Source: a virus. From it: a DNA stretch of 29,677 bases. A program made the position numbers and the translations under genes. Below, in pieces: positions 7,650-27,537 of this stretch. Position 1 is the first letter of the stretch; each line of letters opens with the position of its first letter. The notes beneath the pieces are model-generated. The model ran no database searches. It saw nothing but the letters and a program-made list of their open reading frames with translations, and was not told where the DNA came from. The stretch spans positions 1-29,677 of IMG/VR virus record IMGVR_UViG_3300048591_000437. One strand, given 5' to 3'.

Positions 7650-8288
7650 GTGGACGCGCTCACGATGCTCAGGGTTCTGCGCGTCGCGCTGGGGCTATGC
7701 GTGATTGTCGTTGTGATCGTGCTTGCAGTGCGGCGGAGGATCGAATGGTGGCAAGTCGCATGGCTGATGATCTATCTCATCAACCAGTCGGCGTTTGCCG
7801 CCTACATCCTCATCGCAGGCCATCTCGGCGCCATCGACACGGCAATGGCGCGCATCTGGAGCGTCACGCTCGACATTCACGGCTCGTTTGCGATGCTGAT
7901 GTTTCTGACCGTGGTGATGCTGAGCGGGCGCAAGGGGCGGGGCGACGGACAGGGCAAGGGGCAGAGCAAAGGGCAACGCAATGAACGGCGCAAGCCTCAG
8001 CCTCAGCGACTTGCTCGGACTCGTGCTGACCGGGCTGATGATCGTCATCAGTCTCTTGTCGATCTTTCGGCGGAATGGGAATTCCTCGACCGCATCCGAT
8101 GCGCAAGCCCTCAGCGCGTCATGGCGCATGCTGACGCAGGAGCAGCGGCGCGAGATCGAGATCAAGGACGTGCACAACGCGCTGCTCGCAGAGCAGCTTT
8201 GGCGGGCGAGGATCGAGCCGGTGCCGCGAGCGCAAGCCGAGACGATCTACAACACGGTGAGCGACCTGGCCGCGCAATTCTCGATTGA
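7650..8288 (+). CDS. Multi-pass membrane protein with long overlapping C-terminus
   Basis: The GTG start at 7650 has AAGGGG nine nt upstream. Residues 1-90 contain three hydrophobic segments (about 8-27, 35-57 and 75-92), followed by a Gly/Lys/Gln-rich stretch. After about residue 110 the frame runs out of phase through the next gene (7981-8442) for some 308 nt, giving Arg-rich text that looks like a shadow translation. So the frame is open, but the functional protein may be only about 110 residues, with the stop lost by mutation or a sequencing frameshift. A holin or anti-holin role is possible from its location only. Confidence 0.5.
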   Translation: MDALTMLRVLRVALGLCVIVVVIVLAVRRRIEWWQVAWLMIYLINQSAFAAYILIAGHLGAIDTAMARIWSVTLDIHGSFAMLMFLTVVMLSGRKGRGDGQGKGQSKGQRNERRKPQPQRLARTRADRADDRHQSLVDLSAEWEFLDRIRCASPQRVMAHADAGAAARDRDQGRAQRAARRAALAGEDRAGAASASRDDLQHGERPGRAILD

Positions 8289-8442
8289 CGAACTGGACAC
8301 CCTCATGCTGGCTATAGACATTCGACCCGACTCCGTGCGCGGCGACACCATCGAGGAGCGCGCCCGCGAGCTGGTGCTGGCCGCCGACCGGCGCGGTCGG
8401 TTGGAGGCGCTCGTCCGCGCAGCGAGGGCAGAACGGCCATGA
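7981..8442 (+). CDS. Membrane-anchored effector-associated-domain (EAD, death-like) protein
   Basis: This 153-aa protein has one N-terminal membrane segment (about residues 9-29), a helical linker (about 45-85) and a C-terminal domain (about 88-153). The domain follows the pattern of bacterial effector-associated domains: FSIDELDTLMLAIDI at 100-114, an ERARELV helix around 126-132, and GRLEALVRAARAERP at 139-153. EADs are small death-fold-like adaptors that link NLR-type ATPases, proteases, TIR domains and other effectors in bacterial conflict systems, and are common in Chloroflexota and Cyanobacteria. In a phage it could be a decoy or a recruiter of host effectors. The subtype is not assigned. 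The start overlaps no recognised stop and has AAAGGGC upstream. Confidence 0.68.
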   Translation: MNGASLSLSDLLGLVLTGLMIVISLLSIFRRNGNSSTASDAQALSASWRMLTQEQRREIEIKDVHNALLAEQLWRARIEPVPRAQAETIYNTVSDLAAQFSIDELDTLMLAIDIRPDSVRGDTIEERARELVLAADRRGRLEALVRAARAERP

Positions 8443-9431: not shown

Positions 9432-9896
9432 ATGTCGGATTTTGACTGGACGCCCAGACGCAGCGACGCGGCGGTGATGCTTGCGAAGGGCTGCACGAAC
9501 AAGGAGACCGCCGAGGCCGTCGGTGTGGCCGAGCGCACGATCGAACGCTGGCGCGCCGACACTGAGTTCATGGCAGAGGTTGACCGGCTGAGCGTGATGG
9601 TTGACCTGGCAAACAGGGCAGAGCGGCTGAGGCTTGCGCAGCGGGTTGTGCGGCGCATGGAAGAGCGCACGGGGCGCGACCTGCTCGACTGGCTGAGGTT
9701 CATTCAGAGTGAAACAGATGGCGCGAAACTCGACGGCGGCTTCATCGAAAAACTTGCCGCCCTCCTATCGTCTGGCGAAGGCGCGCCCGACGTTGCTCCC
9801 GCCGAAAGCGCAGGCGCAACTGGCGGCGACGCTCGCGCCGGCGCAACCCCAGACAGCGCAACCCCAGACGGCGCAAGCGCCCCTGACCCCGCCTGA
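9432..9896 (+). CDS. Terminase small subunit-like HTH protein
   Basis: This 154-aa protein begins with a homeodomain-like helix-turn-helix (about residues 8-47). Its sequence AAVMLAKGCTNKETAEAVGV followed by ERTIERWRAD is the classic pattern of DNA-recognition domains in small terminase subunits. A helical middle (about 50-110) probably drives oligomerisation. The last 45 residues are Ala/Gly/Pro-rich and overlap the next frame. It sits directly upstream of the large terminase, the expected partner that binds the packaging site. ATGTCGGA is repeated across its start (about 9421-9440). Confidence 0.78.
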   Translation: MSDFDWTPRRSDAAVMLAKGCTNKETAEAVGVAERTIERWRADTEFMAEVDRLSVMVDLANRAERLRLAQRVVRRMEERTGRDLLDWLRFIQSETDGAKLDGGFIEKLAALLSSGEGAPDVAPAESAGATGGDARAGATPDSATPDGASAPDPA

Positions 9897-11214
9897 CATT
9901 GCCGACTGGATCGACACATCCGTCACCATCGAAGACCCTCAGCGCGAGCCGTCGATCATCCCGTTCGGCCTGTGGCCGGCCCAGCGCGACGTGTTGCAGT
10001 CGCTCCAGCATGAGCGGCAGATCATCATTCTCAAGGCGCGCCAGCTCGGCATCACCTGGCTCGTGCTGGCGTATGCCCTGCACCTGTGCCTCTTCCACGC
10101 CAACAAGACGGTCATCATCATCTCGAAGGATCAAGAGGCGGCCAATGAGACGATCCGGCGCGCACGCGGCATGTTCACGCGGCTGGAGGCAAAGCCGGCG
10201 GCGCTCGTCATTGACAACGTGGGCGAGGTCGCATGGTCGAACGGCTCTCGCGTCAAGGCGTTTGCGTCCTCCAGCGATGCCGGCTCATCGTTCACCGGCT
10301 CCCTGTTGATTCTGGATGAGTTGGCAAAGAACCCGAAAGCCGATGCGATCTACACCTCGGCAAAGCCGACGATTGACGACGGCGGGCGCGTGGTGATCCT
10401 GAGCACCGCGAAGGGCAAAGACAACCTGTATCACCGGCTTTGGACAAAGGCAACCGAGGGCGCGAACAACCTGAAGGCGATCTTCATCCCATGGCACGCA
10501 AGGCCCGGCCGGGACGAGGCGTGGTATGGCCGTGTGGCCGCCGACGCGCCGACGATGCAGCATCACACGCAGGAATACCCCGCGACGCCAGAGGAGGCCT
10601 TTCAGGCGCTTGCAGAAACGCCCTTCTTGCCGGCGATTGCATGGTGGGACATGTGCCGCGAAGACCTGCCGCCGCTAGGTGGCCGTGAGCCGGTGGTCGT
10701 TGCGCTCGATGCGGCCACGACGAACGACTCATTCGGACTTGCGGTGGTGAGCCGGCACCCGCAACGAAAGGGCGACGTGGCGCTGCGCATGACGCGAGAA
10801 TGGCGACCCGTGGACGGCGTGATTCGGTTCGGCGACAAGGGCGACCCAGAAACGCCGCGTGGCTATGTGCAGATGCTCATCGACCGCTTCAACGTGGTGC
10901 AACTGTGCGGCGACCCCTACCAGTTGCACCAGATGTTCGGCGAAATCAGGGACGCTGGCCGCGTCTACGTGGCCGAGTTCAATCAGGGCGCAGAGCGGCT
11001 TGAGTCTGACAACCAGTTGAAGCAACTTATCATTGAGCGGCGCATCTCGCACGACGGCGACGCAACTGCACGCCGGCACATCGAGAACGCCGACGCGAAG
11101 GTAGACGCCGATGCGCACAAGTTGCGCATCGTGAAGCGCGAGCAAAGCATGAAGATCGACGTGGCCGTCTGCATCAGCATGGCCGCCAAGCGATGCCTTG
11201 ACCTGAGCCTGTAG
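9718..11214 (+). CDS. Terminase large subunit (ATPase-nuclease)
   Basis: This is the packaging motor of 498 aa. The ATPase has the terminase-type Walker A KARQLGIT (about 10033-10056), Walker B LLILDE (about 10303-10320) and a coupling motif near LSTAKGKDN. The C-terminal RNase H-like nuclease starts at VALDAATTNDSFGLAVVS, with further acidic residues downstream. The start is uncertain. ATG 9718 (or GTG 9709) would overlap the small subunit gene by about 180 nt, and the first 60 residues are Pro/Ala/Gln-rich. The clearly family-like sequence begins near PDIADWID (about 9892), so translation from a rarer codon is possible. A 14-nt direct repeat lies at 9841-9870. Confidence 0.92.
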   Translation: MARNSTAASSKNLPPSYRLAKARPTLLPPKAQAQLAATLAPAQPQTAQPQTAQAPLTPPDIADWIDTSVTIEDPQREPSIIPFGLWPAQRDVLQSLQHERQIIILKARQLGITWLVLAYALHLCLFHANKTVIIISKDQEAANETIRRARGMFTRLEAKPAALVIDNVGEVAWSNGSRVKAFASSSDAGSSFTGSLLILDELAKNPKADAIYTSAKPTIDDGGRVVILSTAKGKDNLYHRLWTKATEGANNLKAIFIPWHARPGRDEAWYGRVAADAPTMQHHTQEYPATPEEAFQALAETPFLPAIAWWDMCREDLPPLGGREPVVVALDAATTNDSFGLAVVSRHPQRKGDVALRMTREWRPVDGVIRFGDKGDPETPRGYVQMLIDRFNVVQLCGDPYQLHQMFGEIRDAGRVYVAEFNQGAERLESDNQLKQLIIERRISHDGDATARRHIENADAKVDADAHKLRIVKREQSMKIDVAVCISMAAKRCLDLSL

Positions 11215-11273: not shown

Positions 11274-11322
11274 ACTGTCGTTCGCACATTTGAACGCGGC
11301 TGAGCAATCAGCCGCGTTTTTT
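11274..11322 (+). terminator. Unit B: ACTGTCGTTCG box plus intrinsic terminator
   Basis: The box ACTGTCGTTCG (11274-11284) is followed by AACGCGGCTGA (11293-11303), a GCAA tetraloop and TCAGCCGCGTT (11308-11318), then a T-run. The stem is a perfect 11 bp and the loop is of GNRA type. The same hairpin recurs exactly at 14456-14481. It lies only 12 nt before the portal start codon, which lacks a Shine-Dalgarno sequence, so an attenuator or leader role is plausible. Confidence 0.85.
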
Positions 11323-11333
11323 GTATCTAACAC

Positions 11334-13904
11334 ATGGCGCAAATACAACCTGATGTCCTGAAGCGAAGCGTCACCCGCGATGAAGCCGAATCCGGCATGT
11401 CGCACTACTGGATTGCGCCGCTGGCATTCGGCGCGGGCGCCGGCCTCGTGTCCATGCCCTACGAGCCGCCCGCATACTGGAGCCGTGAGCGCGACATCGC
11501 CCTGCGTGACGCCTACCGTCGCGGCGCACAGTGGGCGAGCGCGGTGAATATTGCCGTGACGCGCGTGGGCGTGTCGGGCTACGAACTCGACGGCGACGTG
11601 GGCTTGCGCGTCCGGCGCGCCCGCGAGATGCTCGGCTCGTCGTGGATCGACGCCGTGCAGCGCCTTGCGATGGATTACGTGACGACTGACAACGGCGGCT
11701 TCTGGGAGATCGTGCGCGCCACAAAGGCGTACGGCTCGCGCGTGCTGGGCATCGTGCCTCTGTCGAGCATTCGCTGCATCCGCACCGGCGATCCTGAGCG
11801 ACCGGTGATCTACGTTGACCGGCTCGGCAGGTATCACGAGCTGCGGGCACATCAGGTCGCCGGCTTCAGCGACATGCCCGACGAAGACTATTTCGGCGTC
11901 GGCCTCAGCGCAACGTCGCGCGCGTGGGACGCGATCTATGAGGACATGGCTGTGAGCGCCTACTTCAAGGAGAAGGCGACCGGCCGCCGGCCCCTCGCGC
12001 TCTACTTCATGACCGGCATGGCCGATCAGGCCATCGAAGACACGCTGAAGACGGCGCAAGAGGACGCGTCGCGCAAAGGGCTTCTGTCGTTCATGGGCGC
12101 GGCGATCAAGGGCAACCCGAACAATGTGCCGCTGAACCTCGTCACCGTGCCGCTTGCATCGCTCCCTGACGGCTTCAACCAGGAGAAACACGAGGAGCTG
12201 CGCGACATCAAGTTCGCCGCCGCGCTGGGCATCGACCCATCCGACCTAAACCCGCGGCTGATCGGCAACCGGCAGCTCGGCGCGGGCAGTCAGGCGCAAG
12301 TGCTTGACGACAAGCAGGATTCAAAGGGCTTGATTGCACTGCGTCAAAAAATTGCCGCGTTCATGAACGACACGGAGACGTGGCACCCGTTGCCAGGCGG
12401 CGTGACGTTTGCATGGAGCGAGCGCGACCTGAAGGATCAGCAGGCGAAAGCCGGCATCGCTCAGACGCGTGCGCAGACCCGCGCTGCGCAGATTCAATCG
12501 GGCGAGATCACGACCGAGGAGGCGCGGCAACTGGCCGTGGACGCCGGCGACATTCCGCAGTCGTTCATCCCTGTGGACAAGACCGACGAGGAGACGCTGA
12601 CCGACGAAGACAAGGCCGACAGTGGGCAGTTGCCGGAGGCGACGCCTGAAGTGCAATCGACGCAGGGCACGCCTGCGCCGATGAATGTGCAGCCGGCGGT
12701 GAAGTTGGCCGAACTGCGCGCGCTGCTGTATGAGGTCGTGGCCTACGGAGGCATTGCAGCCAAAGAAGGGCACACCGGCGCGATGGTCGCGCTGTATCCG
12801 CCGCAGTCTCAGGCGCTGGCCATTTCCGCCGGCCTTGATGCCGTGAGCTGGCCGCCCGATGCGAAGGTGACACAACCCAGTGAGATGCACATCACACTCG
12901 CATTTCTGGGTGAAGCTGCGAGCATCGATGAAGCGCGCCGGCGCGAGATGGCCACCAAGGCTGAGGACATGCTGCGCGAGGTGCCGGAGGCGGTGCGCTT
13001 CAACGGCATTGCGCGCTTCAATGGCAGTGAGTCAGACGGCGATGCGGTTGTCGTGTTGCTCAGCAGCAGCCGCCTGAACGCGCTCGCGGCCAACGTGCGG
13101 CGCGAGATCGGCGATGAGAGCGAGCATCCGTTCCTTGCGCACATGACGCTTGCCTATATCCCGAAGGATGCCCCCACCCCGACAGTGCCGCCGCCATTTG
13201 ATGCGCTGCGCATCGACCGACTGTCGCTCGTGTTTGCAGATAAACCGTTCGCAGAGTGGAAGTTGAAGAACGGAGTTGCGCTCCCAAAAGCTGACCCCCG
13301 TCAAACGGGGGCAAGCGCGCCGGCGGCTGCGCTCAAAGCCGCCCGCGGCTCGACCTTGCTTGCGCGCATCATCCCATCGCCGACGAATGAGCCGGCCACG
13401 CGCAAGGATGCCATCGCTTACTGGAAGCGCGCCACGACGCTGCTTGAAGGCGTCGGGGAGGCGTGGAAGGAAGCCGCGCGCGGACTCGCGCCTTCGGAGA
13501 CCGGCGAACTAAAGGAGTCGATCAGCTATGAGCTAACAGGACGCAACTCGCCGACCGTCACACTCAAGCTCATCGCCGGCAACAAGGAGCGGCCAGAGGT
13601 TGCCATTCGCGCCGTGCTGTATGGCCGGCGAGGCTTTGCGCCGAAGCGAGCGAAAGCCTTGCGCTTCACAGTCGGCGGCCAGACGGTGTTTGCGCGCAAG
13701 GTCAAGGGCGCGCTGGCAAACGACTGGCTGTCGAAGTCGCTCAAAGCCATCGAGCCGACCATGCGCGAGGCGGAGCGCGAGCTGGCGAGCGTGACAGTGA
13801 ACAGCATCGAAGTGTCGGATATTCCAGGCGCGATCAAGCGCACGCGGCAGTCGCAGATTCAAGCGCCGAAGACGCCGAAGACGCCGAAGCGCAAGCGCAA
13901 GTAA
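11334..13904 (+). CDS. Portal protein fused to 2H phosphoesterase and gp10-like domains
   Basis: This 856-aa protein has three parts. Residues about 1-445 are an HK97-type portal, the dodecameric DNA gate. Evidence includes the SIRC..TGDPERP.IYVDRLGRY segment, a VAGFSD strand, and the stem/clip-like EKHEELRDIKFAAALGI region. Residues about 465-645 form a 2H phosphoesterase with the paired motifs H519-x-T521-L and H603-x-T605-L, so the active site is intact. Residues about 690-835 resemble an HK97 gp10-like connector (SETGELKESISYEL, then YGRRGFAPKRAKALRF). The frame is open throughout. The 2H family cleaves 2',5' or cyclic nucleotide linkages and includes anti-CBASS Acb1, so a counter-defence role is possible. 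Confidence 0.85.
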   Translation: MAQIQPDVLKRSVTRDEAESGMSHYWIAPLAFGAGAGLVSMPYEPPAYWSRERDIALRDAYRRGAQWASAVNIAVTRVGVSGYELDGDVGLRVRRAREMLGSSWIDAVQRLAMDYVTTDNGGFWEIVRATKAYGSRVLGIVPLSSIRCIRTGDPERPVIYVDRLGRYHELRAHQVAGFSDMPDEDYFGVGLSATSRAWDAIYEDMAVSAYFKEKATGRRPLALYFMTGMADQAIEDTLKTAQEDASRKGLLSFMGAAIKGNPNNVPLNLVTVPLASLPDGFNQEKHEELRDIKFAAALGIDPSDLNPRLIGNRQLGAGSQAQVLDDKQDSKGLIALRQKIAAFMNDTETWHPLPGGVTFAWSERDLKDQQAKAGIAQTRAQTRAAQIQSGEITTEEARQLAVDAGDIPQSFIPVDKTDEETLTDEDKADSGQLPEATPEVQSTQGTPAPMNVQPAVKLAELRALLYEVVAYGGIAAKEGHTGAMVALYPPQSQALAISAGLDAVSWPPDAKVTQPSEMHITLAFLGEAASIDEARRREMATKAEDMLREVPEAVRFNGIARFNGSESDGDAVVVLLSSSRLNALAANVRREIGDESEHPFLAHMTLAYIPKDAPTPTVPPPFDALRIDRLSLVFADKPFAEWKLKNGVALPKADPRQTGASAPAAALKAARGSTLLARIIPSPTNEPATRKDAIAYWKRATTLLEGVGEAWKEAARGLAPSETGELKESISYELTGRNSPTVTLKLIAGNKERPEVAIRAVLYGRRGFAPKRAKALRFTVGGQTVFARKVKGALANDWLSKSLKAIEPTMREAERELASVTVNSIEVSDIPGAIKRTRQSQIQAPKTPKTPKRKRK

Positions 13905-13911
13905 CAGGCAA

Positions 13912-13938
13912 ATGAAACTCACGCGATGAAACTCACGC
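13912..13938 (+). repeat. Tandem duplication across a start codon
   Basis: ATGAAACTCACGC occurs at 13912-13924 and again at 13926-13938, a 14-nt tandem unit. The first copy encodes a five-codon mini-ORF (MKLTR, then TGA) whose stop overlaps the ATG of the gp10-like gene. The duplication may leave the upstream copy as a coupling leader or may be neutral. Confidence 0.7.
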
Positions 13939-14399
13939 CCATCCTGCCCAAAAAGAAACTGCCCTCGTCGCGCGAGATTGAGCGCGTCATCGAGCAGGTG
14001 ATGGACAACGCCGCCTATGACGCCATGGATGCGTTTCTGGGTGTCACCTCGACGTGGAAGAACCGGCCATCGTTTCACATCCGCAAAACGAACAGCGGGC
14101 GCACGGTCAGCACGCGCTCCAAAATCTTCGCCTATGTCGATCGGGGCACGAGAGCGCACACGATCAAGCCGAAGCGTGCTGGCGGCGTGCTGCGCTTCAA
14201 GGCCGGCGGCTTCAAGCCGAAGTCGCGACCCGGCTCGCTCAAGGCGTCGCGCGGCGCGCCTGGCCGCAAGTGGGTCGCATCGAAGGGCGTGCAGCACCCG
14301 GGCACCGAGGCACGCGAGTTCTCCAAGAAGGTCGGGGAGAAGATGCAGAAGGAGATCGGCAAGGAGATGCGCAGAGCCTTCAAGGCCCTGCTCAAGTAA
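13926..14399 (+). CDS. HK97 gp10-like head-tail connector protein
   Basis: This 157-aa protein carries the marks of the HK97 gp10/neck family. An N-terminal helix (REIERVIEQVMDNAA) is followed by a strand stretch ending in YVDRGTRAHTIKPK, a Gly/Lys-rich loop (GVLRFKAGG), and the GVQHPGTEAREFSKKV segment, then a C-terminal helix. Such proteins complete the head-tail interface and are usually encoded after the capsid gene; here it lies before the protease and capsid. The preceding portal fusion also ends in a gp10-like domain, so two related domains are encoded side by side. The start is ATG 13926; an upstream ATG at 13912 meets a stop after five codons. Confidence 0.72.
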   Translation: MKLTPILPKKKLPSSREIERVIEQVMDNAAYDAMDAFLGVTSTWKNRPSFHIRKTNSGRTVSTRSKIFAYVDRGTRAHTIKPKRAGGVLRFKAGGFKPKSRPGSLKASRGAPGRKWVASKGVQHPGTEAREFSKKVGEKMQKEIGKEMRRAFKALLK

Positions 14400-14437: not shown

Positions 14438-14488
14438 ACTGTCGTTCGTGATTTGAACGCGGCTGAGCAATCAGCCGCGTTTTTGTTT
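14438..14488 (+). terminator. Unit C: ACTGTCGTTCG box plus intrinsic terminator
   Basis: ACTGTCGTTCG (14438-14448) is followed by the same 11-bp hairpin with a GCAA loop as unit B (AACGCGGCTGA 14456-14466, TCAGCCGCGTT 14471-14481), then TTTTTGTTTT. The protease/scaffold start at 14499 follows within about 10 nt and lacks a Shine-Dalgarno sequence. Conservation of both box and hairpin, while the sequences between them differ, points to selection. Confidence 0.85.
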
Positions 14489-14498
14489 TCCCATTTCG

Positions 14499-16442
14499 AT
14501 GCCGTATCTGCATGTCAACCTCCAGCGCCGGCAAGCAAGGCTTGCGACGCTCAAAGCCTTGTCGCTCAAAGCGCCGAAGTATGACGCGCGCGCCGGCGAG
14601 GTCATCTCCGGCAACCTCGCGCGCGGCGGCGACGGCAAGTTCACCCGCGCTGACGGCAGTGCGGCCAGTGGTCGCGATGTCATCAATGCGTTGACCAAGA
14701 AGCCCAAAGCGCCCAAGAGCGGGCGCGGCGGCGCGAAGGTGACAGAAGCCCAAAGCGACGCGACTGCGCAGAAGGTCGGCCTGCAAGCCGGCGATGCCAA
14801 AGCCCTCGCCCAGTTCGCGAAGGGCGGCCAGATGGACGACGCCACAGCCGCGCGCATGGAGAAGGCCGGCATCGTCGAGCGTGGCAGCGACGGAACGCTG
14901 CGCTTTACCGGCGCGGGACGATCTGCCACACGCGCCCTGTCGAAAGGCGACGAGCGCGCCGCCGCCGATGCGGTGAGCCGCGCCAGAGACCAACAGTCGA
15001 AGCGCGAAGAGCGCGCCGCCAAACGTGAGCAAGCCGCCGCTGCACGGGCTGAGCGCGCATCCCAGCGCGCCGGCGCGCGGCAGTCGCGCGAGAACACCCG
15101 CGCCAACGCTGAGGCCAAACGCAACGCCGAAGAGCGGCAAAAAGTCGGCAACCGGCTCGAAGAGATCGAGACGCTCGCGGAGCAGCGCGGCGAGGACATG
15201 ACGCCCTTTCAGCGCACGCAGGCCGTCAACCGGCTTGAGGAGCTGCAGACGCGGCTCGACAAGGCCGGCGGCGACAGCGAACTGTCGAAGCGCATCGAAG
15301 CGGCGCGGCGCAAGCTGGCCGGCGAAGAAGGCGACGAAGGCGAAGAAGGCGAGCGCGAGAACGTCACCCCGTTCAAGGAGCGCCGCAGTGCACCTTCATC
15401 GCGATTCGAGGTGCTCAAGCAGTCCGACGGATCCTACCGCTGGCTCGCCCGCACAACCAACGCCTACCGCGACGGCGACGGCGAGATCGTCTCAACCAAG
15501 GCGCTTGAAGCCGACGCCGATCGCATGAACACGACGGGTGAATACGGGCCGCTTCGATGGTGGCACGTCGGCAAAGTCGATTACCCGCGCCCGCTGGACT
15601 GGACGAGCGCGAAGGCCGGGCGGGGCATTGACATCGGCACGACCGACTTTGCAGCCGTGTTCGACAAGATGCGCATCGAGGGCGGCACGATCCAGAAGGA
15701 ATACGCCGAGGCGATCATGCGCAACCCGGACGACTACGCGCTCTCCATCGGCTTCGCGCATCCAATAGGCGAGCCTGAGGGAGGCGTGTTCCACAACATC
15801 AGGACGTTCGAGCGGAGCGTGCTCCCGCGAGGCCGGGCCGCAAATCCGTTCACAGGAATTGAGATTCAACAGGAGATAGATATGGCAAGCATGAAAGAGA
15901 AGTTGCAAGGCCTGGCCGACCGCTTCTTCGGCGGCGACATGACGAAGGCCGAAGCGATGGCCGCCGAGGTCATTGCGCAGTCGAAAGAACTCGAGGGCGC
16001 GGGCATCGCGTTCAAGGCCGAAGGCGAGACCGAGACGAAGGCCGAAGAGGTTAAGGCCGAGGGTGAGATGGTTGAAGAGGTCGAGGTCGAGGAGACCGAC
16101 GATGCGACCTTCGTCGGCGACATGACGCCGGACGAGTTCGCGAAGCTCATCGCCGGCGCCATCGCGGAGGCCATCGCCCCGCTGATGGGCCAGATGCGCG
16201 AGGCGAAGGCGGCGGCTGAGTCGGTGCAGAAAGAACTCAGCACGTCGAAAGAGACAAGCGGCAAAGCCATCATCGCGCTCGATCAGCGCGTGAAGGAACT
16301 CGAAGGCGACGCGCCAGCCGCGAAGGGCTTTCGCGCCTCGCAGTCCCAGGAGACGCTGAAAGAAGCGCCGCCCGCGCCGCCCGTGGCCGAGGACGAACTG
16401 GCGAAGCTCGCCGCGTGGGTGATTGCGCCGGCGGGCAAGTAA
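14499..16442 (+). CDS. Prohead protease with C-terminal scaffold (fused)
   Basis: This 647-aa protein shows several zones. The N-terminal ~70 residues have the phage motif VISGNLARGGDGKFTRADG. Residues about 150-285 are a long Ala/Arg/Glu-rich helical, probably coiled-coil, region. Residues about 300-460 form a prohead-protease-like domain, with WWHVGKVDYPRPLDWTSAKA, then DYALSIGFAHP and RTFERSVLPRGRAANPF near its end. The last 186 residues are acidic and helical, like a scaffold. An internal ATG with AGGAG at 15882 would release the scaffold part alone. The protease would cleave scaffold and capsid arms during head maturation. The catalytic Ser/His are not assigned with confidence. Confidence 0.72.
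   Translation: MPYLHVNLQRRQARLATLKALSLKAPKYDARAGEVISGNLARGGDGKFTRADGSAASGRDVINALTKKPKAPKSGRGGAKVTEAQSDATAQKVGLQAGDAKALAQFAKGGQMDDATAARMEKAGIVERGSDGTLRFTGAGRSATRALSKGDERAAADAVSRARDQQSKREERAAKREQAAAARAERASQRAGARQSRENTRANAEAKRNAEERQKVGNRLEEIETLAEQRGEDMTPFQRTQAVNRLEELQTRLDKAGGDSELSKRIEAARRKLAGEEGDEGEEGERENVTPFKERRSAPSSRFEVLKQSDGSYRWLARTTNAYRDGDGEIVSTKALEADADRMNTTGEYGPLRWWHVGKVDYPRPLDWTSAKAGRGIDIGTTDFAAVFDKMRIEGGTIQKEYAEAIMRNPDDYALSIGFAHPIGEPEGGVFHNIRTFERSVLPRGRAANPFTGIEIQQEIDMASMKEKLQGLADRFFGGDMTKAEAMAAEVIAQSKELEGAGIAFKAEGETETKAEEVKAEGEMVEEVEVEETDDATFVGDMTPDEFAKLIAGAIAEAIAPLMGQMREAKAAAESVQKELSTSKETSGKAIIALDQRVKELEGDAPAAKGFRASQSQETLKEAPPAPPVAEDELAKLAAWVIAPAGK
15882..16442 (+). CDS. Nested scaffolding protein (internal in-frame start)
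   Basis: AGGAG at 15871-15875 stands six nt before ATG 15882, which is in frame with the protease gene (its residue 462). The 186-aa product is acidic and mostly helical: a helix-rich N-terminus with KAEAMAAEVIAQ, a Glu/Val-rich middle (about residues 50-75), and a segment of helices with QMREAKAAAESVQKELS. This is the expected composition of a phage head scaffold. The arrangement copies lambda, where the scaffold is made from an internal start in the protease gene. The strong internal Shine-Dalgarno sequence, in a place with no need for it otherwise, is the main evidence. Confidence 0.72.
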   Translation: MASMKEKLQGLADRFFGGDMTKAEAMAAEVIAQSKELEGAGIAFKAEGETETKAEEVKAEGEMVEEVEVEETDDATFVGDMTPDEFAKLIAGAIAEAIAPLMGQMREAKAAAESVQKELSTSKETSGKAIIALDQRVKELEGDAPAAKGFRASQSQETLKEAPPAPPVAEDELAKLAAWVIAPAGK

Positions 16443-17983: not shown

Positions 17984-18026
17984 AGCGTAGACCATCGGCT
18001 TATTGTCGGGGCTTTCCTCCGTGGTG

Positions 18027-18722
18027 ATGTGGCCTGATGTCGCAGTGCTGATACCGACGTTCAACCGTGCCGAGATCGTCTCGCGCACGGTTGAACTCAT
18101 CGCGTCAAATCTGCGGTATTCAGGTCACGTCCACATCATCGTCGGCTGCGACGGCGACGATGACACGCCGGAGCGCCTCGCGCATCTGCCCTGCACGGTG
18201 CTTGCGCGTCGCGCCGGCGGACAGAGAAGCGGCATCGGCGCAAACACGAACCGGCTGCTCAAGGCGGCTCAGCGCGCCGGCTGCGAGTGCTTCATCACGA
18301 TGGACGACGATCACCATCTCGTCGCGCCCATCGGCCTGAATCGCCATGTGGCAAAGCTGATGAATGACGCAAGCGCCGGTCGCATTCACTTGCTCATGGA
18401 AGCCGTGCACGATGAGCATTTCGACCCTTACAAGTTCACGGCGACGCTTGACCGAGATCACTACTGGCGTGTGCACTGGGATAGCCCTGAGCATTTCATC
18501 ATGTCGTTTCGCCCGAACCTCACGCACCTGCGATGGTGGGAGGCGATGGGCTACCTGCCCGAAGGCTTGAAGACGGGTGAGACCGAATGGACATATGCGC
18601 AGCACTGCAAGCAGGCAGGCGCGGCCAGTGGCGTGCACGTGTTTGTGCCGCTGTGCGCTTACGGCTTCGACCACTGGCAACACAACAACGGAGGGAAGTC
18701 GTGGAATCATTCTGGATTGTGA
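18027..18722 (+). CDS. GT-A fold glycosyltransferase (family 2-like)
   Basis: This 231-aa enzyme begins with VAVLIPTFNRAEIV, the standard start of family 2-like nucleotide-sugar transferases. It carries the metal/sugar-binding DDD-H motif at residues 93-97 (MDDDHH). Later segments have the usual GT-A organisation. ATG 18027 is preferred because the family-like sequence starts there; an in-frame TTG at 18003 would add eight residues. It is encoded directly after the capsid protein, next to a bifunctional glycosyltransferase. Phage transferases in structural operons are known to glycosylate virion proteins in mycobacteriophages, so modification of capsid or tail is likely. The donor sugar is unknown. 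Confidence 0.78.
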   Translation: MWPDVAVLIPTFNRAEIVSRTVELIASNLRYSGHVHIIVGCDGDDDTPERLAHLPCTVLARRAGGQRSGIGANTNRLLKAAQRAGCECFITMDDDHHLVAPIGLNRHVAKLMNDASAGRIHLLMEAVHDEHFDPYKFTATLDRDHYWRVHWDSPEHFIMSFRPNLTHLRWWEAMGYLPEGLKTGETEWTYAQHCKQAGAASGVHVFVPLCAYGFDHWQHNNGGKSWNHSGL

Positions 18723-18829
18723 TGAGCTACCTCATCACCGGCGCGTGTGGGTGCAGCATCGGCGTCGTGGGCATGGTTGCCATCGGCGCGCTTCTGGCCG
18801 CAGGGAGGCGCGATGGCCAAAGCCGCTAA
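18701..18829 (+). CDS. Tiny membrane protein (42 aa)
   Basis: GTG at 18701 is preceded by GGAGGG five nt upstream, a strong signal. The peptide has a hydrophobic segment (about residues 3-35) with several Gly and Cys residues, then a short basic tail. It overlaps the end of the first transferase gene and the start of the second in a different frame. A shorter form from ATG 18722, overlapping the preceding stop, is also possible. It may tether the transferases to the membrane or be an unrelated small membrane protein. Confidence 0.5.
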   Translation: MESFWIVMSYLITGACGCSIGVVGMVAIGALLAAGRRDGQSR

Positions 18830-20780
18830 AACACTCTCGCTTGCGCCAGGCGTCGTGATCATTCCCGCGTGGGATGATCTGCCGGCGATGGTGACGCAAC
18901 TGCGCGGCGCGCTGGCCGTCGTGAGTGACGATGCGCGCGTGGTCGCTGCCGTGCAGCGCGATTGCCGGCTGCCCGTGTTCAGCGACCTCGCCGGCGCGAA
19001 CGCATACGCAAAGCGCGCCGCAAAGATGCGCAACGGGCGCATCAGCGCCGTCGTGCCGAATTACAACTACGGCCGGTTCATCTGCGACGCGATCAACTCG
19101 CTGCTCACGCAGACGATGCACGTCAGCGAGATCATCGTCGCGGACGACGGCTCGACCGATGGCTCTGTTGACACCGTGCGCGCTCACTTCGGCGACGTGA
19201 CGCGCCTGCGCATCATCGAGATGCCGGCGAACAGCGGCAACGTCGGCGGCCCGCGCAACGCCGGCATCGCCGCGGCGACGGGCGAGTTCATCATCACGCT
19301 CGACAGCGACGACATGCTAGAGCCCGAATACGCCGAGGTGTTGTTTGACTGCCTGAAGGCGCATCCGGACGCCGGCGTCGCATACACCGGCGTGCAGATT
19401 CACAACGAGGACACAGGCGAGCGGTGGATTGTGCCGAACTGGCCAGTGCCGTTTGAGTGGGCATGGTCGATGGGCAAGGAGCCGGATGGCACGCCACACA
19501 ACTGCATCCCGACGGCATCGATGTTCAGGCGCGAGATGTGGGCCAGAGCCGGCGGCTATGACGCAGGGCGCACGTGCGCAGAGGATGCGGAGTTCTGGAC
19601 GCGCGCGCTTTCGACCGGCTGGCGCGCGGTCAAGTCAACCGAATCGCCCCTGTTCGTCTATCGCCGGCATGGCAACAGCATGTCCAGCCGGCCTGTCTTG
19701 CCGCTCAATGCGTGGTCGAGCCTGTATCGCGGCCACACGCCACTGGCCGCGCCCGTCTCGCCGGCTGAGCGCACGGACATGCGCGACTACACGCGCCCGC
19801 TCGTGAGCGTGATCATCCCCGTCGGGCCTGGGCACGGCGCGCATCTGCCGACTGCGCTGCACAGCCTGCTTGCGCAGACGTTCTGGAACTTCGAGGTGAT
19901 CGTCGTCAACGACTCGGGCGAGAAGTTGCCGCTTGCGCCCCACCCGTTCGTCCGAGTTTCGGACACTGGCCCCAGAGCGGGTGCGGGTGCCGCGCGCAAC
20001 ACCGGCCTTGCGCTTGCGCGCGCGCCGCTGTGTTTCTTTCTGGACGCCGACGACTACATCCTGCCTCGGACGCTAGAACAGATGATCAAGCGCTATGCGC
20101 ACGGCGACGCCGGCTACGTGTATTCGGGCTGGCAGTTCATCCGCAAGGGACAAGCGCCGGAGAAGCTCATCGCCGGCGAGTGGACGCAGGATGCGTGGGC
20201 AAGCTACGAGTCGCGCGGCCTGCATGGCGTGAGCGTGCTCATGGCGACCGAGGATGCGATGAAGATCGGCGGCTTCGACCAGACGATGAGCGGCTTCGAG
20301 GATTGGGAATTCTTCGTGCGCTGCACCATCGCTGGGTTGTGCGGCGCGTGTGTGCCGGAGGCGCTGCTCGCCTACCGGCTCGACACAGGACAGCGCCGCG
20401 AACACGCTGCGCAAAAGCGGGATGAGGTCGTCGCATATCTGCGCGCCCATCATGGCGACTACATCGAAGGGAGGACTGCAATGAGTGCATGTTGCGGCGG
20501 CAACCTGACCGCCAGCGAGCAAGCCGCGAAAGAACTGGCAAGCGCGAAGGCGCTGTTGCCGTTTGAGATCGACAGTGACGGCGCGGTGCTGATGGAATAC
20601 GTCGGGCGCTACGAAGCGCCGGTCACCTATTTCGGGCGCTACTCCGGCTGCAAGACGTGCGAGCCGGCGCGCGTGGACGCCGGCGACGTGGCACGCATGG
20701 AGGCCACGGGCGCGTGGCGCGTGAAGCCGGCGATGGAGCCGCACACGCCCCAGCCGGCGGCGATCTATCCAGATCCATGA
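18813..20780 (+). CDS. Double family 2 glycosyltransferase fused to a small C-terminal domain
   Basis: This 655-aa protein starts at ATG 18813 (GGGAGG upstream), with a ~60-residue leading region. The first GT2 domain (about residues 70-300) begins ISAVVPNYNYGRF and has DDGSTDGS and the DSDD metal motif at 164-167. The second (about 330-555) begins VSVIIPV and has DADD at 411-414 and a GFEDWEF acceptor-site motif. Both look intact, so two different sugar transfers, or a chain-building enzyme, are possible. The last 99 residues form a separate small domain with Cys residues and a VTYFGRYSGCKTCEP segment, preceded by its own start signal. Virion-protein glycosylation is the likely role from context. 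Confidence 0.85.
   Translation: MAKAAKTLSLAPGVVIIPAWDDLPAMVTQLRGALAVVSDDARVVAAVQRDCRLPVFSDLAGANAYAKRAAKMRNGRISAVVPNYNYGRFICDAINSLLTQTMHVSEIIVADDGSTDGSVDTVRAHFGDVTRLRIIEMPANSGNVGGPRNAGIAAATGEFIITLDSDDMLEPEYAEVLFDCLKAHPDAGVAYTGVQIHNEDTGERWIVPNWPVPFEWAWSMGKEPDGTPHNCIPTASMFRREMWARAGGYDAGRTCAEDAEFWTRALSTGWRAVKSTESPLFVYRRHGNSMSSRPVLPLNAWSSLYRGHTPLAAPVSPAERTDMRDYTRPLVSVIIPVGPGHGAHLPTALHSLLAQTFWNFEVIVVNDSGEKLPLAPHPFVRVSDTGPRAGAGAARNTGLALARAPLCFFLDADDYILPRTLEQMIKRYAHGDAGYVYSGWQFIRKGQAPEKLIAGEWTQDAWASYESRGLHGVSVLMATEDAMKIGGFDQTMSGFEDWEFFVRCTIAGLCGACVPEALLAYRLDTGQRREHAAQKRDEVVAYLRAHHGDYIEGRTAMSACCGGNLTASEQAAKELASAKALLPFEIDSDGAVLMEYVGRYEAPVTYFGRYSGCKTCEPARVDAGDVARMEATGAWRVKPAMEPHTPQPAAIYPDP
19950..19964. 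promoter_or_regulatory. Palindromic site GTCCGANNNTCGGAC, copy 2 (intragenic)
   Basis: GTCCGAGTTTCGGAC lies inside the double glycosyltransferase gene. It is the exact reverse complement of the copy at 25383-25397 and shares both arms with the intergenic copy at 6943-6957. A stoperator-like or other protein-binding role is possible; chance is unlikely for a third copy of a 12-base specification in 29.7 kb. Confidence 0.45.
20481..20780 (+). CDS. Small virion-like domain with internal start (99 aa)
   Basis: AAGGGAGG (20467-20474) stands six nt before ATG 20481, in frame with the glycosyltransferase. The product starts MSACCGGNLTASEQ and contains YVGRYEAPVTYFGRYSGCKT, then a DAGDVARMEATGAWRV ending. 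That resembles small SH3-like proteins often found in phage structural gene clusters. It could be made alone from the internal start and also as the C-terminal part of the fusion. Loss of a stop codon between two once-separate genes is an alternative origin. Independent expression is inferred from the strong Shine-Dalgarno sequence. Confidence 0.6.
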   Translation: MSACCGGNLTASEQAAKELASAKALLPFEIDSDGAVLMEYVGRYEAPVTYFGRYSGCKTCEPARVDAGDVARMEATGAWRVKPAMEPHTPQPAAIYPDP

Positions 20781-24567: not shown

Positions 24568-25793
24568 CCATTGACCGCTCTGCCCCACTGCTCCCGCTGG
24601 ATGAGTTCCGGCGCATCATGGGCATCCATCCGTTCCACTTCTGGCAATTGCAAGACGCGACGCTCGCGCCGGTGACAAGCGCGTGCAATACGCTTGTGTT
24701 TGAGTCGTCATGGCAATATGCCGACGCCGCTGGGCGCGCCGACATTCTGCGCGCCATTCAGCACGCCGAGGACAAGCTCACCGACTACCTCGGCTTTGCG
24801 CCGGCCCCCCGCGCCGAATATGACGAGGTGCAGTTCCCGCAGTTCTACGATGCGCGCAACACGTATCTGTCGAGCGCGGACGCGCAAGGGCGCTGGCTCT
24901 CGCTCAACCTTAAAAAGCGCAAGGTGCAGACGCTCGGCACGATGACCGTGTTAAGCATCGGCGACGCCGCGGTGACGCTCTCGGACGCAGACGGCGACGG
25001 CTTGAGCGACACGTTCACGCTGTCGATCGCCACCACCGTCACCGACCCTGACCAGCTCGCGGTGTATTTCGCCGCGGCGGATCGCTACGACGGCAGCGGC
25101 ATCTCTGATCGCTGGCGCATCACGCCGGTGAGCGTGTCTATTGCCGGCGGCGTGGCGACAATCAAGGGGCGCGCATGGTGCATCGTCAAGCCGGTGCAGT
25201 ATGCCGGCGTAAGGCGTACGGGGCTGGAGGCGACGGGCAGTGTCTACGCCACATCGCTCACCGTTTGCCGCCGCGCCGTGGACACGACGCAGCAGGGCGC
25301 GTTTGTGTGGGAGGCAAGCCCCGGCGCAGGCTGCGACACGTCCGACCCTTCAAGCTATCAACTCGCCACGGCGCGCTACATTGTCCGAAACTCGGACGCC
25401 GGCATCGTGGCCGGCGAGGCGGCGGTGCTCGACAGTGACACCGGCGACTGGGGCGCGACGGCGTGGCCGGTCTCGTATGCGCCGGAGCGCGCACAGGTGA
25501 ACTACACCGCCGGCTACACCGAGGGTGGCCCTGTGATGAGCGCGTGGATGCAGGTCGTCGTGGCGCGGCTGGCGGCGGCTGAGCTTGCCACGAAGATATG
25601 CGCGTGCAAGGACGCCAACCGCGAGATGTCGCGCTGGCAATTTGACCTTGCGCTGCAATCTGGCGCTGAGGGCGTCGAAGGGTATCAGGTGAGCTTTGAA
25701 GACCTAAACTGCCCGTTCGGCACGCGGCGCGGACAGATTCACGCGTGGAAGGAGATTCAGCGCATCGCCGTTCATCGCGCCGTTGTGGTGTGA
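24564..25793 (+). CDS. Head-tail connector-like protein with large insert
   Basis: This 409-aa protein starts at ATG 24564 (GGAGG upstream), overlapping the previous stop. The N-terminal ~95 residues (RRIMGIHPFHFWQL, then ADILRAIQHAEDKLTDYLGF) have the helix pattern of head-tail adaptors, which are usually ~100-150 residues. The much longer middle is beta-rich and contains a calcium-loop-like DxDxDG element (D141-A-D143-G-D145-G). A C-terminal helical part (VMSAWMQVVVARLAAAELATK) returns to the adaptor-like pattern. It may be a connector carrying an inserted decoration domain. The assignment rests on order before the tail-tube gene and on general pattern. A palindrome of the GTCCGA family lies inside at 25383-25397. 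Confidence 0.55.
   Translation: MTIDRSAPLLPLDEFRRIMGIHPFHFWQLQDATLAPVTSACNTLVFESSWQYADAAGRADILRAIQHAEDKLTDYLGFAPAPRAEYDEVQFPQFYDARNTYLSSADAQGRWLSLNLKKRKVQTLGTMTVLSIGDAAVTLSDADGDGLSDTFTLSIATTVTDPDQLAVYFAAADRYDGSGISDRWRITPVSVSIAGGVATIKGRAWCIVKPVQYAGVRRTGLEATGSVYATSLTVCRRAVDTTQQGAFVWEASPGAGCDTSDPSSYQLATARYIVRNSDAGIVAGEAAVLDSDTGDWGATAWPVSYAPERAQVNYTAGYTEGGPVMSAWMQVVVARLAAAELATKICACKDANREMSRWQFDLALQSGAEGVEGYQVSFEDLNCPFGTRRGQIHAWKEIQRIAVHRAVVV
25383..25397. promoter_or_regulatory. Palindromic site GTCCGANNNTCGGAC, copy 3 (intragenic)
   Basis: GTCCGAAACTCGGAC lies inside the connector-like gene, about 400 nt before terminator unit D. It is the exact reverse complement of the copy at 19950-19964. 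Its role, if any, is unknown; an operator or stoperator is the working idea. Confidence 0.45.
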
Positions 25794-25824
25794 CGGTCGG
25801 TGGTGTGAGGCGGGCAAAAAGGCA

Positions 25825-25830
25825 TACAAT
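25825..25830 (+). promoter_or_regulatory. -10-like box of intergenic unit D
   Basis: TACAAT in the context GCATACAATAC begins unit D upstream of the tail-tube gene. No good -35 box is seen. A small hairpin (CGGCG-AATAT-CGCCG) follows, as in unit A. Confidence 0.4.
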
Positions 25831-25857
25831 ACAGGCGGCGAATATCGCCGGCGAACA

Positions 25858-25925
25858 AATCGCACAAACACTGTCGCTCGATATCTGGGCGCGGGGCTTT
25901 CAAGAGTCTCGCGCCCTTTTTGTTT
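25858..25925 (+). terminator. Unit D: AATCGCACAAACACTGTCGCTCG box plus terminator
   Basis: AATCGCACAAACA (25858-25870) is shared with unit B, and ACTGTCGCTCG (25870-25880) is one base different from units B and C. The terminator stem GGGCGCG (25887-25893) pairs with CGCGCCC (25910-25916), extended inward by further pairs including G-U, and is followed by TTTTTGTTTTC. The tail-tube gene starts 68 nt later with AGGAGG. Confidence 0.83.
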
Positions 25926-25992
25926 TCTCGGTTATCAGTTTGCCCTTGCGGGCGAGCCAATGTCAGTCAGGTTAGTCAGGAGGTTACTTGCA

Positions 25993-27537
25993 ATGACGAT
26001 GCAAATGGAGATCAACACACAAAAGCATGGCCGTCCGCACATGCAGTTCGGCGGCCCGCGCCCCAACAACCGCGTGTTCTACTACGGCGGCGACACGAAC
26101 TACGTGATGGTCGGCAGCAGCGACACGCCCGTGCGCGGCGGCGTCGATCCGCTCTGGGTGCGCGACCCGTTCAACACTGACGCGTTCGTGCTGGCAGGGC
26201 GGCAAACGAGCGCGCCCGATCTGCCCTCGGTCGATCTGACCATCCGCGAGAAGATCGGGCAAATCCCGCGCCACCTGCTCGCGTCGAACTGCCTCATCAA
26301 CGTGTATCTCGCGCGCGGGCAGTGCCGCGACTTGAGTGACCTGCGACTCGGTTGGGAGAGCTACGTCAAGATTTTCTCTGGCGGGCGCGTGACGGATCGC
26401 AACACGTCGGACGAGTCGAGCTTTGACGGCGATGACCCGATTGAGACGACGCTCAGCCTGGTGTGCGACGCGATCTACCCCGCCGGAAGTGTCGGCTTCA
26501 CGGAGCGCAACGCGACAGGCGCAACGCTGGAGGTGATGGACATCACCTACGGCAACCGCACGCAGTGCGGCGAGTGCGGCCCCGTCAACGACGGCGCGCA
26601 ATGGGTCTATGCCGTCGAGAAGGGCGGCGCGGCTGCAAAGCCCATCGTGCACTACTCGCTCGACGGCGGCTCGACCTGGGCAACGTCCATCATCACGCCG
26701 GCGGCCAACGCTGAAACGCCGTGCGCCATCCGCCTGATGGGCGGCTTTCTGGTCGTTGTGTCGCCAACCGCAAACTCCGCGACGCAGGGCGGCTACTACT
26801 ACTCACCCATCAACCCCGTCACCGGCGCGCCGTCTGCCACGTGGACAAAGGTCACGACTGGCTTCACGAACAACCAGGAGCCGCGCGACATGTGGGTGGC
26901 AGGGCCGAAAGAGGCGTATCTGTGCACCGACGGCGGCGAGATTCTGCGCATCACCGACGTGCCGAGTGGCGCGACCTCGCTGGGCATCGTGATCTCCAGC
27001 GACCTCACGCGCATCCACGGCAATGCGGACTGCATCGTCGCTGTCGGCGCGTCGGGCAAGGTGGTCAAGTCGATCAATCGCGGCGGCTCGTTTGCGGTGA
27101 CCACGACCGACGCAGGCGCCGCGACGCTGAACGCCATTCACGTGCTTGACCGCAACCGCTACTGGACGGGCAACGCATCCGGCGTCGTGTATTACACGCT
27201 CGACGGTGGCGAGTCGTGGGTGACAGCGGCGCTCGGCGTGACGCCGGCGGCCATTCAGGACATCCGCTTCGCCACCGCCGAATGCGCCTTCATCGCCTAC
27301 ACCGCATCCTCGCTCGGTCGCATCGCAGCGACCATCGACGGCGGCGTGTCGTGGGTGACGAGCGACGTGACCAACCCGCGCATCCTTGGCATTCCGACGA
27401 CCGCGACACAGCGCTACAACCGCATCGCGTCGCCGACGCCCAACGACGCCGGCATCCGCGCCAACTTCGCAGCCATCGCCGGCCTCGGCGCATCGACCGA
27501 CGGCGCGCTGATGGTTGGCGCCGGCAACGTGTTTTAA
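25993..27537 (+). CDS. Major tail protein-like with C-terminal BNR/Asp-box propeller
   Basis: This 514-aa protein starts at ATG 25993 with AGGAGG nine nt upstream. An in-frame start at 25783 would cross terminator unit D. The N-terminal ~190 residues look like a phage tail-tube protein: PDLPSVDLTIREKIGQIPR, DLSDLRLGWESYVKIFSGG and a DDPIETTLSL segment. The remaining ~320 residues hold Asp-box (BNR) motifs at S222-W229 (SLDGGSTW), S360-F367 (degenerate), T402-W409 (TLDGGESW) and T447-W454 (TIDGGVSW), as in beta-propellers. The propeller may decorate the tail surface and bind sugars. Its place before the tail chaperones and tape measure supports the tube role. Confidence 0.78.
   Translation: MTMQMEINTQKHGRPHMQFGGPRPNNRVFYYGGDTNYVMVGSSDTPVRGGVDPLWVRDPFNTDAFVLAGRQTSAPDLPSVDLTIREKIGQIPRHLLASNCLINVYLARGQCRDLSDLRLGWESYVKIFSGGRVTDRNTSDESSFDGDDPIETTLSLVCDAIYPAGSVGFTERNATGATLEVMDITYGNRTQCGECGPVNDGAQWVYAVEKGGAAAKPIVHYSLDGGSTWATSIITPAANAETPCAIRLMGGFLVVVSPTANSATQGGYYYSPINPVTGAPSATWTKVTTGFTNNQEPRDMWVAGPKEAYLCTDGGEILRITDVPSGATSLGIVISSDLTRIHGNADCIVAVGASGKVVKSINRGGSFAVTTTDAGAATLNAIHVLDRNRYWTGNASGVVYYTLDGGESWVTAALGVTPAAIQDIRFATAECAFIAYTASSLGRIAATIDGGVSWVTSDVTNPRILGIPTTATQRYNRIASPTPNDAGIRANFAAIAGLGASTDGALMVGAGNVF

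Follow-up and report, generated by a model that had tools for sequence, protein, structure and literature searches.

A probable phage portal protein with a predicted LigT-like 2H phosphoesterase domain in its linker

Introduction

Several phages carry enzymes on or together with their head proteins, as in phage Mu F, the MuF effector fusions and T4 Alt, although these belong to other enzyme families than the one described here. 2H phosphoesterase domains fused to MuF or portal proteins were reported by Iyer et al. 2017 (PMC5512222), who did not see this phage 2H class alongside RNA ligases. They proposed that the domain acts either as an RNase, beside PBECR RNase fusions in equivalent positions, or on defence nucleotides such as 2'-5' oligoadenylate, which it would degrade. 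A 2022 NAD+-ADPr survey (PMC9503650) likewise took these fusions as a sign that the enzyme is packaged and injected against host oligonucleotide signalling. Our literature search, which covered few subscription papers, turned up no experimental work on a 2H domain fused to a portal or MuF protein. The closest 2H domain of a named phage (36% identity over 91 residues) is located in gp11 of Streptomyces phage TP1604 / BabyGotBac. The gp11 gene likewise lies beside the portal gene, but by annotation its product is a MuF-2H-capsid protease fusion and the 2H domain is not on the portal itself. Phages Cantare, Gray and Wheelbite have separate 2H genes near the portal gene.

Two free proteins serve as references for the 2H fold: the cellular enzyme LigT / ThpR of E. 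coli (PDB 5ldi, 4qak) and the phage protein Acb1 (T4 57B; FBB1 structures 7t26, 7t27). Acb1 holds the bases of its substrate with the aromatic stackers Y12, W74, F107 and W147, plus E141 (Hobbs et al. 2022, PMC9117128).

This work describes a phage locus in which a 2H domain is predicted between a probable portal domain and a C-terminal domain in a single protein. An earlier note on this DNA had suggested a virion-borne anti-signalling enzyme. This idea is a rediscovery, as it was already proposed in PMC5512222 and PMC9503650, and the architecture and the proposed packaging, injection and counter-signalling are shared with the published 2H-portal and 2H-MuF fusions. Unlike these, the lineage described here has a 2H-free ortholog and a portal family without a match among database phages. 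The new elements are the phage lineage, this ortholog, evidence that the 2H family was fused more than once, to several portal families, and the ranking of LigT over Acb1.

Results

A single open reading frame directly after the terminase gene

The window, i.e. the whole stretch of DNA analyzed here, is the 29,677-base virus record IMGVR_UViG_3300048591_000437. Single-protein scans of viral contigs returned one near-identical contig of 36,458 bases as the sole close relative, a plasmid search returned no match, and the fusion protein was without a match in PADLOC. The following features are located around the fusion gene:

9709..11214, + strand: large terminase subunit (TerL) of the T4-like type, immediately 5' of the fusion gene (Pfam Terminase_6N, 2e-14; TerL_nuclease, 1.1e-9; PHROGs terminase)
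11334..13904, + strand: 856-aa fusion protein (portal-like, 2H phosphoesterase and C-terminal domains)
11334..12638, + strand: probable portal domain, aa 1-435
12756..13283, + strand: predicted 2H phosphoesterase domain, about aa 475-650
12888..12896, + strand: first catalytic motif, H519-I-T521
13140..13148, + strand: second catalytic motif, H603-M-T605
13314..13892, + strand: C-terminal domain, aa 661-853, weakly gp10/neck-like
13926..14399, + strand: neck or tail-completion protein (PHROG 5, tail completion or Neck1, E=9.8e-4), with homologues 3' of the portal gene in relatives

We confirm that the fusion protein is encoded by one open frame of 856 aa starting at an ATG. The codon-position GC pattern is uniform over the ORF, with a high third-position GC throughout, and the frame is therefore regarded as one coding unit.

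An intact 2H phosphoesterase domain

Residues 517-622 match PF13563 (2_5_RNA_ligase2; E=4.7e-9, 36.9 bits against a cut-off of 27), and PF02834 (LigT) is likewise matched above its cut-off (E=4e-7, 30.6 bits against 23.3). An HMM built from the family itself matches aa 475-645 of the fusion protein with E=4e-39. The two HxT motifs that had been read from the translation were found at exactly those residues: among 49 aligned relatives, H and T of the first motif are invariant, as is H of the second, and T of the second is nearly so. Judged by sequence, the domain belongs to the 2H phosphoesterase superfamily with both motifs intact, and enzymatic activity is predicted. PHROG 2659, PHROG 14859 and many actinophage records label this 2H family as 'RNA ligase', a label that is misleading for a family with these phosphoesterase profile matches.

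A predicted fold closer to LigT than to Acb1

The AlphaFold2 model of the 2H domain, made from the 49-sequence alignment, reached a mean pLDDT of 85, with values of ~90 or more in the core. The best solved structures in the fold search were E. coli LigT and other RNA 2',3'-cyclic phosphodiesterases (Z 16-17). LigT / ThpR superposes with Z 17 and an rmsd of 2.5 over ~156 residues and shares both HxT motifs, at ~20% identity to the 2H domain of the window. Lower scores were obtained for Usb1 (14.7), the rotavirus VP3 2',5'-PDE (13.6), Acb1 (12.4) and the penguinpox cGAMP PDE (10.3). The sequence profile of the 2H family ranks its matches in the same order as the fold search, from LigT-type proteins (E=1e-13 to 7e-7) through MHV NS2a (4e-6) to Acb1 (1e-4). 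The domain is thus closer to LigT than to Acb1 in both sequence and predicted fold, although a LigT-like fold cannot name the substrate.

The structural comparison with LigT and Acb1 that the earlier note had proposed therefore yields a confident 2H fold, and the likeness to Acb1 put forward there is retained only in part: fold and HxT/HxT tetrad are shared (Z 12), but LigT is the closer relative. Assignment to the Acb1 family was rejected since the score against its profile PF23474 (15.6 bits, E=0.014) lies below the cut-off of 27, and Acb1 is kept as an analogy. In an alignment with T4 Acb1, which is weak between the motifs, the HxT tetrad matches and the positions of Y12, W74, F107, W147 and E141 correspond to M484, S565, E597, F634 and one gap. 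Neither the stacking residues nor the lid of Acb1 are clearly conserved in the domain of the window.

Recurrent fusion to head proteins

A scan with the 2H alignment identified 73 viral loci, in nearly all of which both HxT motifs are intact. Since these loci were picked by 2H likeness, they show the recurrence of fusions and not their frequency among phages. Portals fused to the 2H domain were assigned to PHROG 12/2662 (L013, L023, L050, L053, L072), PHROG 113 (L018, L019, L045, L066, L070), PHROG 64/104 (L036) and PHROG 776 (L074). At other loci, Pfam and PHROGs matches place the 2H domain in the same protein as MuF, XkdF/S78 or Mu-like proteases, ADP-ribosyltransferase or zeta toxin. In a tree of 49 2H domains the label 'fused to portal' changes ~10-11 times; well-supported branches require at least three of these changes, and the tree leaves many forks open. 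This distribution needs repeated fusions of the predicted 2H domain to head proteins, including several portal families, and fits selection for packaging.

An ortholog without the 2H domain

A terminase scan led to contig L085/L094, of which TerL is 71% identical to that of the window. In the equivalent place, this contig encodes a protein of 656 aa with 67% identity to aa 1-435 and 48% identity to aa 661-853 of the fusion protein. Between these two parts lies a Pro/Ala-rich linker of ~30 residues, in place of the 225-residue stretch that contains the 2H domain in the window. No 2H domain was found elsewhere in the L085/L094 record. Five more distant contigs with relatives of the portal (~31-36% identity) have no 2H domain in the portal or on their available sequence.

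Because the ortholog and these five relatives all do without it, the 2H domain is an optional accessory cassette for which there is no structural need. A single gain in the lineage of the window would account for all seven contigs and is simpler than loss, which needs more steps. Whether by gain or loss, the flanking head domains occur without 2H.

The probable portal domain

The assignment of aa 1-435 as a portal is probable and is based on gene order, conservation and one weak profile match. The gene is located directly 3' of TerL in the window and in four other contigs checked for this (L094, L095, L098 and L099). The family (~435-550 aa) is kept in seven contigs, the window and six others, and MuF-like or neck genes come next. 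A match to PHROG 146 (portal; E=2.4e-4) is restricted to aa 349-434 and is shown by one of the seven members, the one of the window itself. No Pfam portal family matched the fusion protein, and hhalign of the portal part against PHROG 12/2662, PHROG 113 and T4-like portals gave nothing above chance. A search of prokaryote genomes returned no relative of this portal. At a mean pLDDT of 50, and <45 over most of the portal part, the full-length model is too poor to judge a portal fold, and a fold search with it recovers the 2H part only. The portal named in the earlier note is thus upheld by gene order, family conservation and PHROG 146, and not by Pfam.

The C-terminal domain and the neck genes

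The label 'gp10-like', also given beforehand, is shakier than the portal label. A likeness to the neck family of the same phage group was detected by hhalign (probability 40%, E=3e-4 in a single comparison, 45 columns), whereas PF04883 (HK97 gp10-like) had no match to the domain at E<=10; we regard the domain as weakly gp10-like by these comparisons. The window and L094 have nearly the same basic tail, SDI-GAIKRTRQSQIQAPKTP (13812-13892), against ~48% identity in the rest of the domain.

Contigs L095-L098 have a small gene between the portal and neck genes (L095, 8623-9198; L096, 7229-7792; L098, 8578-9159). Its product carries a MuF-like CHxNCxC motif, recognised by eye, and was not matched by PF04233 (MuF). 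The window and L094 lack this gene, and in both of them the portal is fused to the C-terminal domain.

Other features of the window

An identical 34-bp hairpin with a T-run is present twice: at 11288-11321, where 12 nt separate it from the portal ATG, and at 14451-14484, where the ORF at 14499-16442 starts 14 nt further on. A similar hairpin precedes the portal gene of contig L085 at the equivalent place. These hairpins are terminator-like, yet are located directly 5' of start codons.

Upstream, an ORF of 153 aa (7981-8442, + strand) encodes a membrane-like segment at its N-terminus and, at its C-terminus, an effector-associated domain, EAD7 (Pfam E=2.8e-15), which has been described in bacterial conflict systems. 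A tblastn search of the phage collection returned no homologue of this ORF. Directly after the head-gene region lie two glycosyltransferase ORFs (18003-20780, + strand), the second with two GT2-type domains. The ORF at 25783-27537 (+ strand) has weak Sortilin-Vps10 and BNR repeat-like matches and possibly encodes a beta-propeller tail protein.

Discussion

Our preferred reading, to which we give somewhat less than even confidence, is that of a portal-type protein with a LigT-like 2H domain inserted in its linker as accessory cargo, likely blunting an early host response based on (cyclic) oligonucleotides. Portals in general are dodecamers at one vertex of the head. Such a ring would carry ~12 copies of the 2H domain inside the virion, and the domain would sit behind the C-terminal part of the portal, within the head. 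From the recurrent fusion to head proteins, we expect that the enzyme would be delivered at infection, along with the DNA or next to it. In the new host, it would open 2',3'-cyclic, 2'-5' or strained 3'-5' phosphodiester bonds, in small nucleotides or at RNA ends, in line with the chemistry of the superfamily. The likeliest benefit would be that the oligonucleotide response is blunted ahead of phage gene expression. The match of the predicted fold to LigT, viral 2',5'-PDEs and Acb1, together with the invariant catalytic residues, supports this reading. Against it, the domain is closer in sequence and predicted fold to RNA 2',3'-cyclic phosphodiesterases than to Acb1, the stacking residues of Acb1 are not clearly present, and the portal label depends on gene order and one weak profile match.

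Counter-signalling is ranked first and the healing of RNA ends second. In the latter explanation, which we consider unlikely, RNA ends cut by host anticodon nucleases or toxins would have their 2',3'-cyclic phosphates opened by the packaged 2H domain, which would allow the repair of tRNA or phage RNA. The top sequence and fold matches, LigT-type RNA 2',3'-cyclic phosphodiesterases, agree with such a role. An RNA ligase of the ATP-grasp or T4 Rnl1 type (PF09414, PF09511) or RtcB (PF01139) was found neither in the window nor in the near-identical 36,458-base contig, which makes repair less likely, although both records may be fragments; a ligase could come from the host or from a region of the phage genome beyond these records. 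The lack of association between this phage 2H class and RNA ligases, as stated in PMC5512222, also counts against it.

A Usb1-type RNase carried in the virion, which would damage or trim host RNA at the onset of infection, would account for the common fold (Z 14.7) and agrees with the RNase role proposed in PMC5512222. We consider it very unlikely, given an identity to Usb1 of 10% over the aligned residues and the higher scores of LigT. A purely structural or regulatory role, in which the 2H domain would serve the portal as a folded spacer or a sensor of nucleotides and catalysis would be irrelevant, is if anything slightly less probable still. A location in the linker between two head domains would suit a spacer, but the ortholog has the same protein without 2H, and a spacer would not need the two HxT motifs that nearly all relatives keep. 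Of what the earlier note had offered, the intact 2H domain on a head protein is thus borne out by the tetrad and the fold, whereas its structural alternative is weakened by the ortholog. Least probable of all is that the N-terminal part is another terminase-adjacent head protein, with a different copy number and location; the negative Pfam and hhalign comparisons and the weak PHROG match in one of seven members would allow it, but the PHROG 146 match itself, the size and conservation of the family, and a place directly after TerL with MuF-like or neck genes downstream argue for a portal.

Going beyond the preferred reading of a cargo enzyme that blunts the early host response, the portal ring may be a modular carrier of which the linker accepts enzymes, with ~12 virion-borne LigT-type copies destroying a host oligonucleotide alarm before phage expression and with a substrate possibly unlike that of Acb1. 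We regard this extended version as speculative, and a shade less probable than RNA-end healing. The 2H-free ortholog makes the anti-alarm idea testable, as it provides a natural version of the flanking head domains that lacks the cassette. If virion-borne 2H domains do degrade host nucleotide alarms, signal-based defences would be disarmed at time zero, before inhibitors that have to be expressed, such as Acb1.
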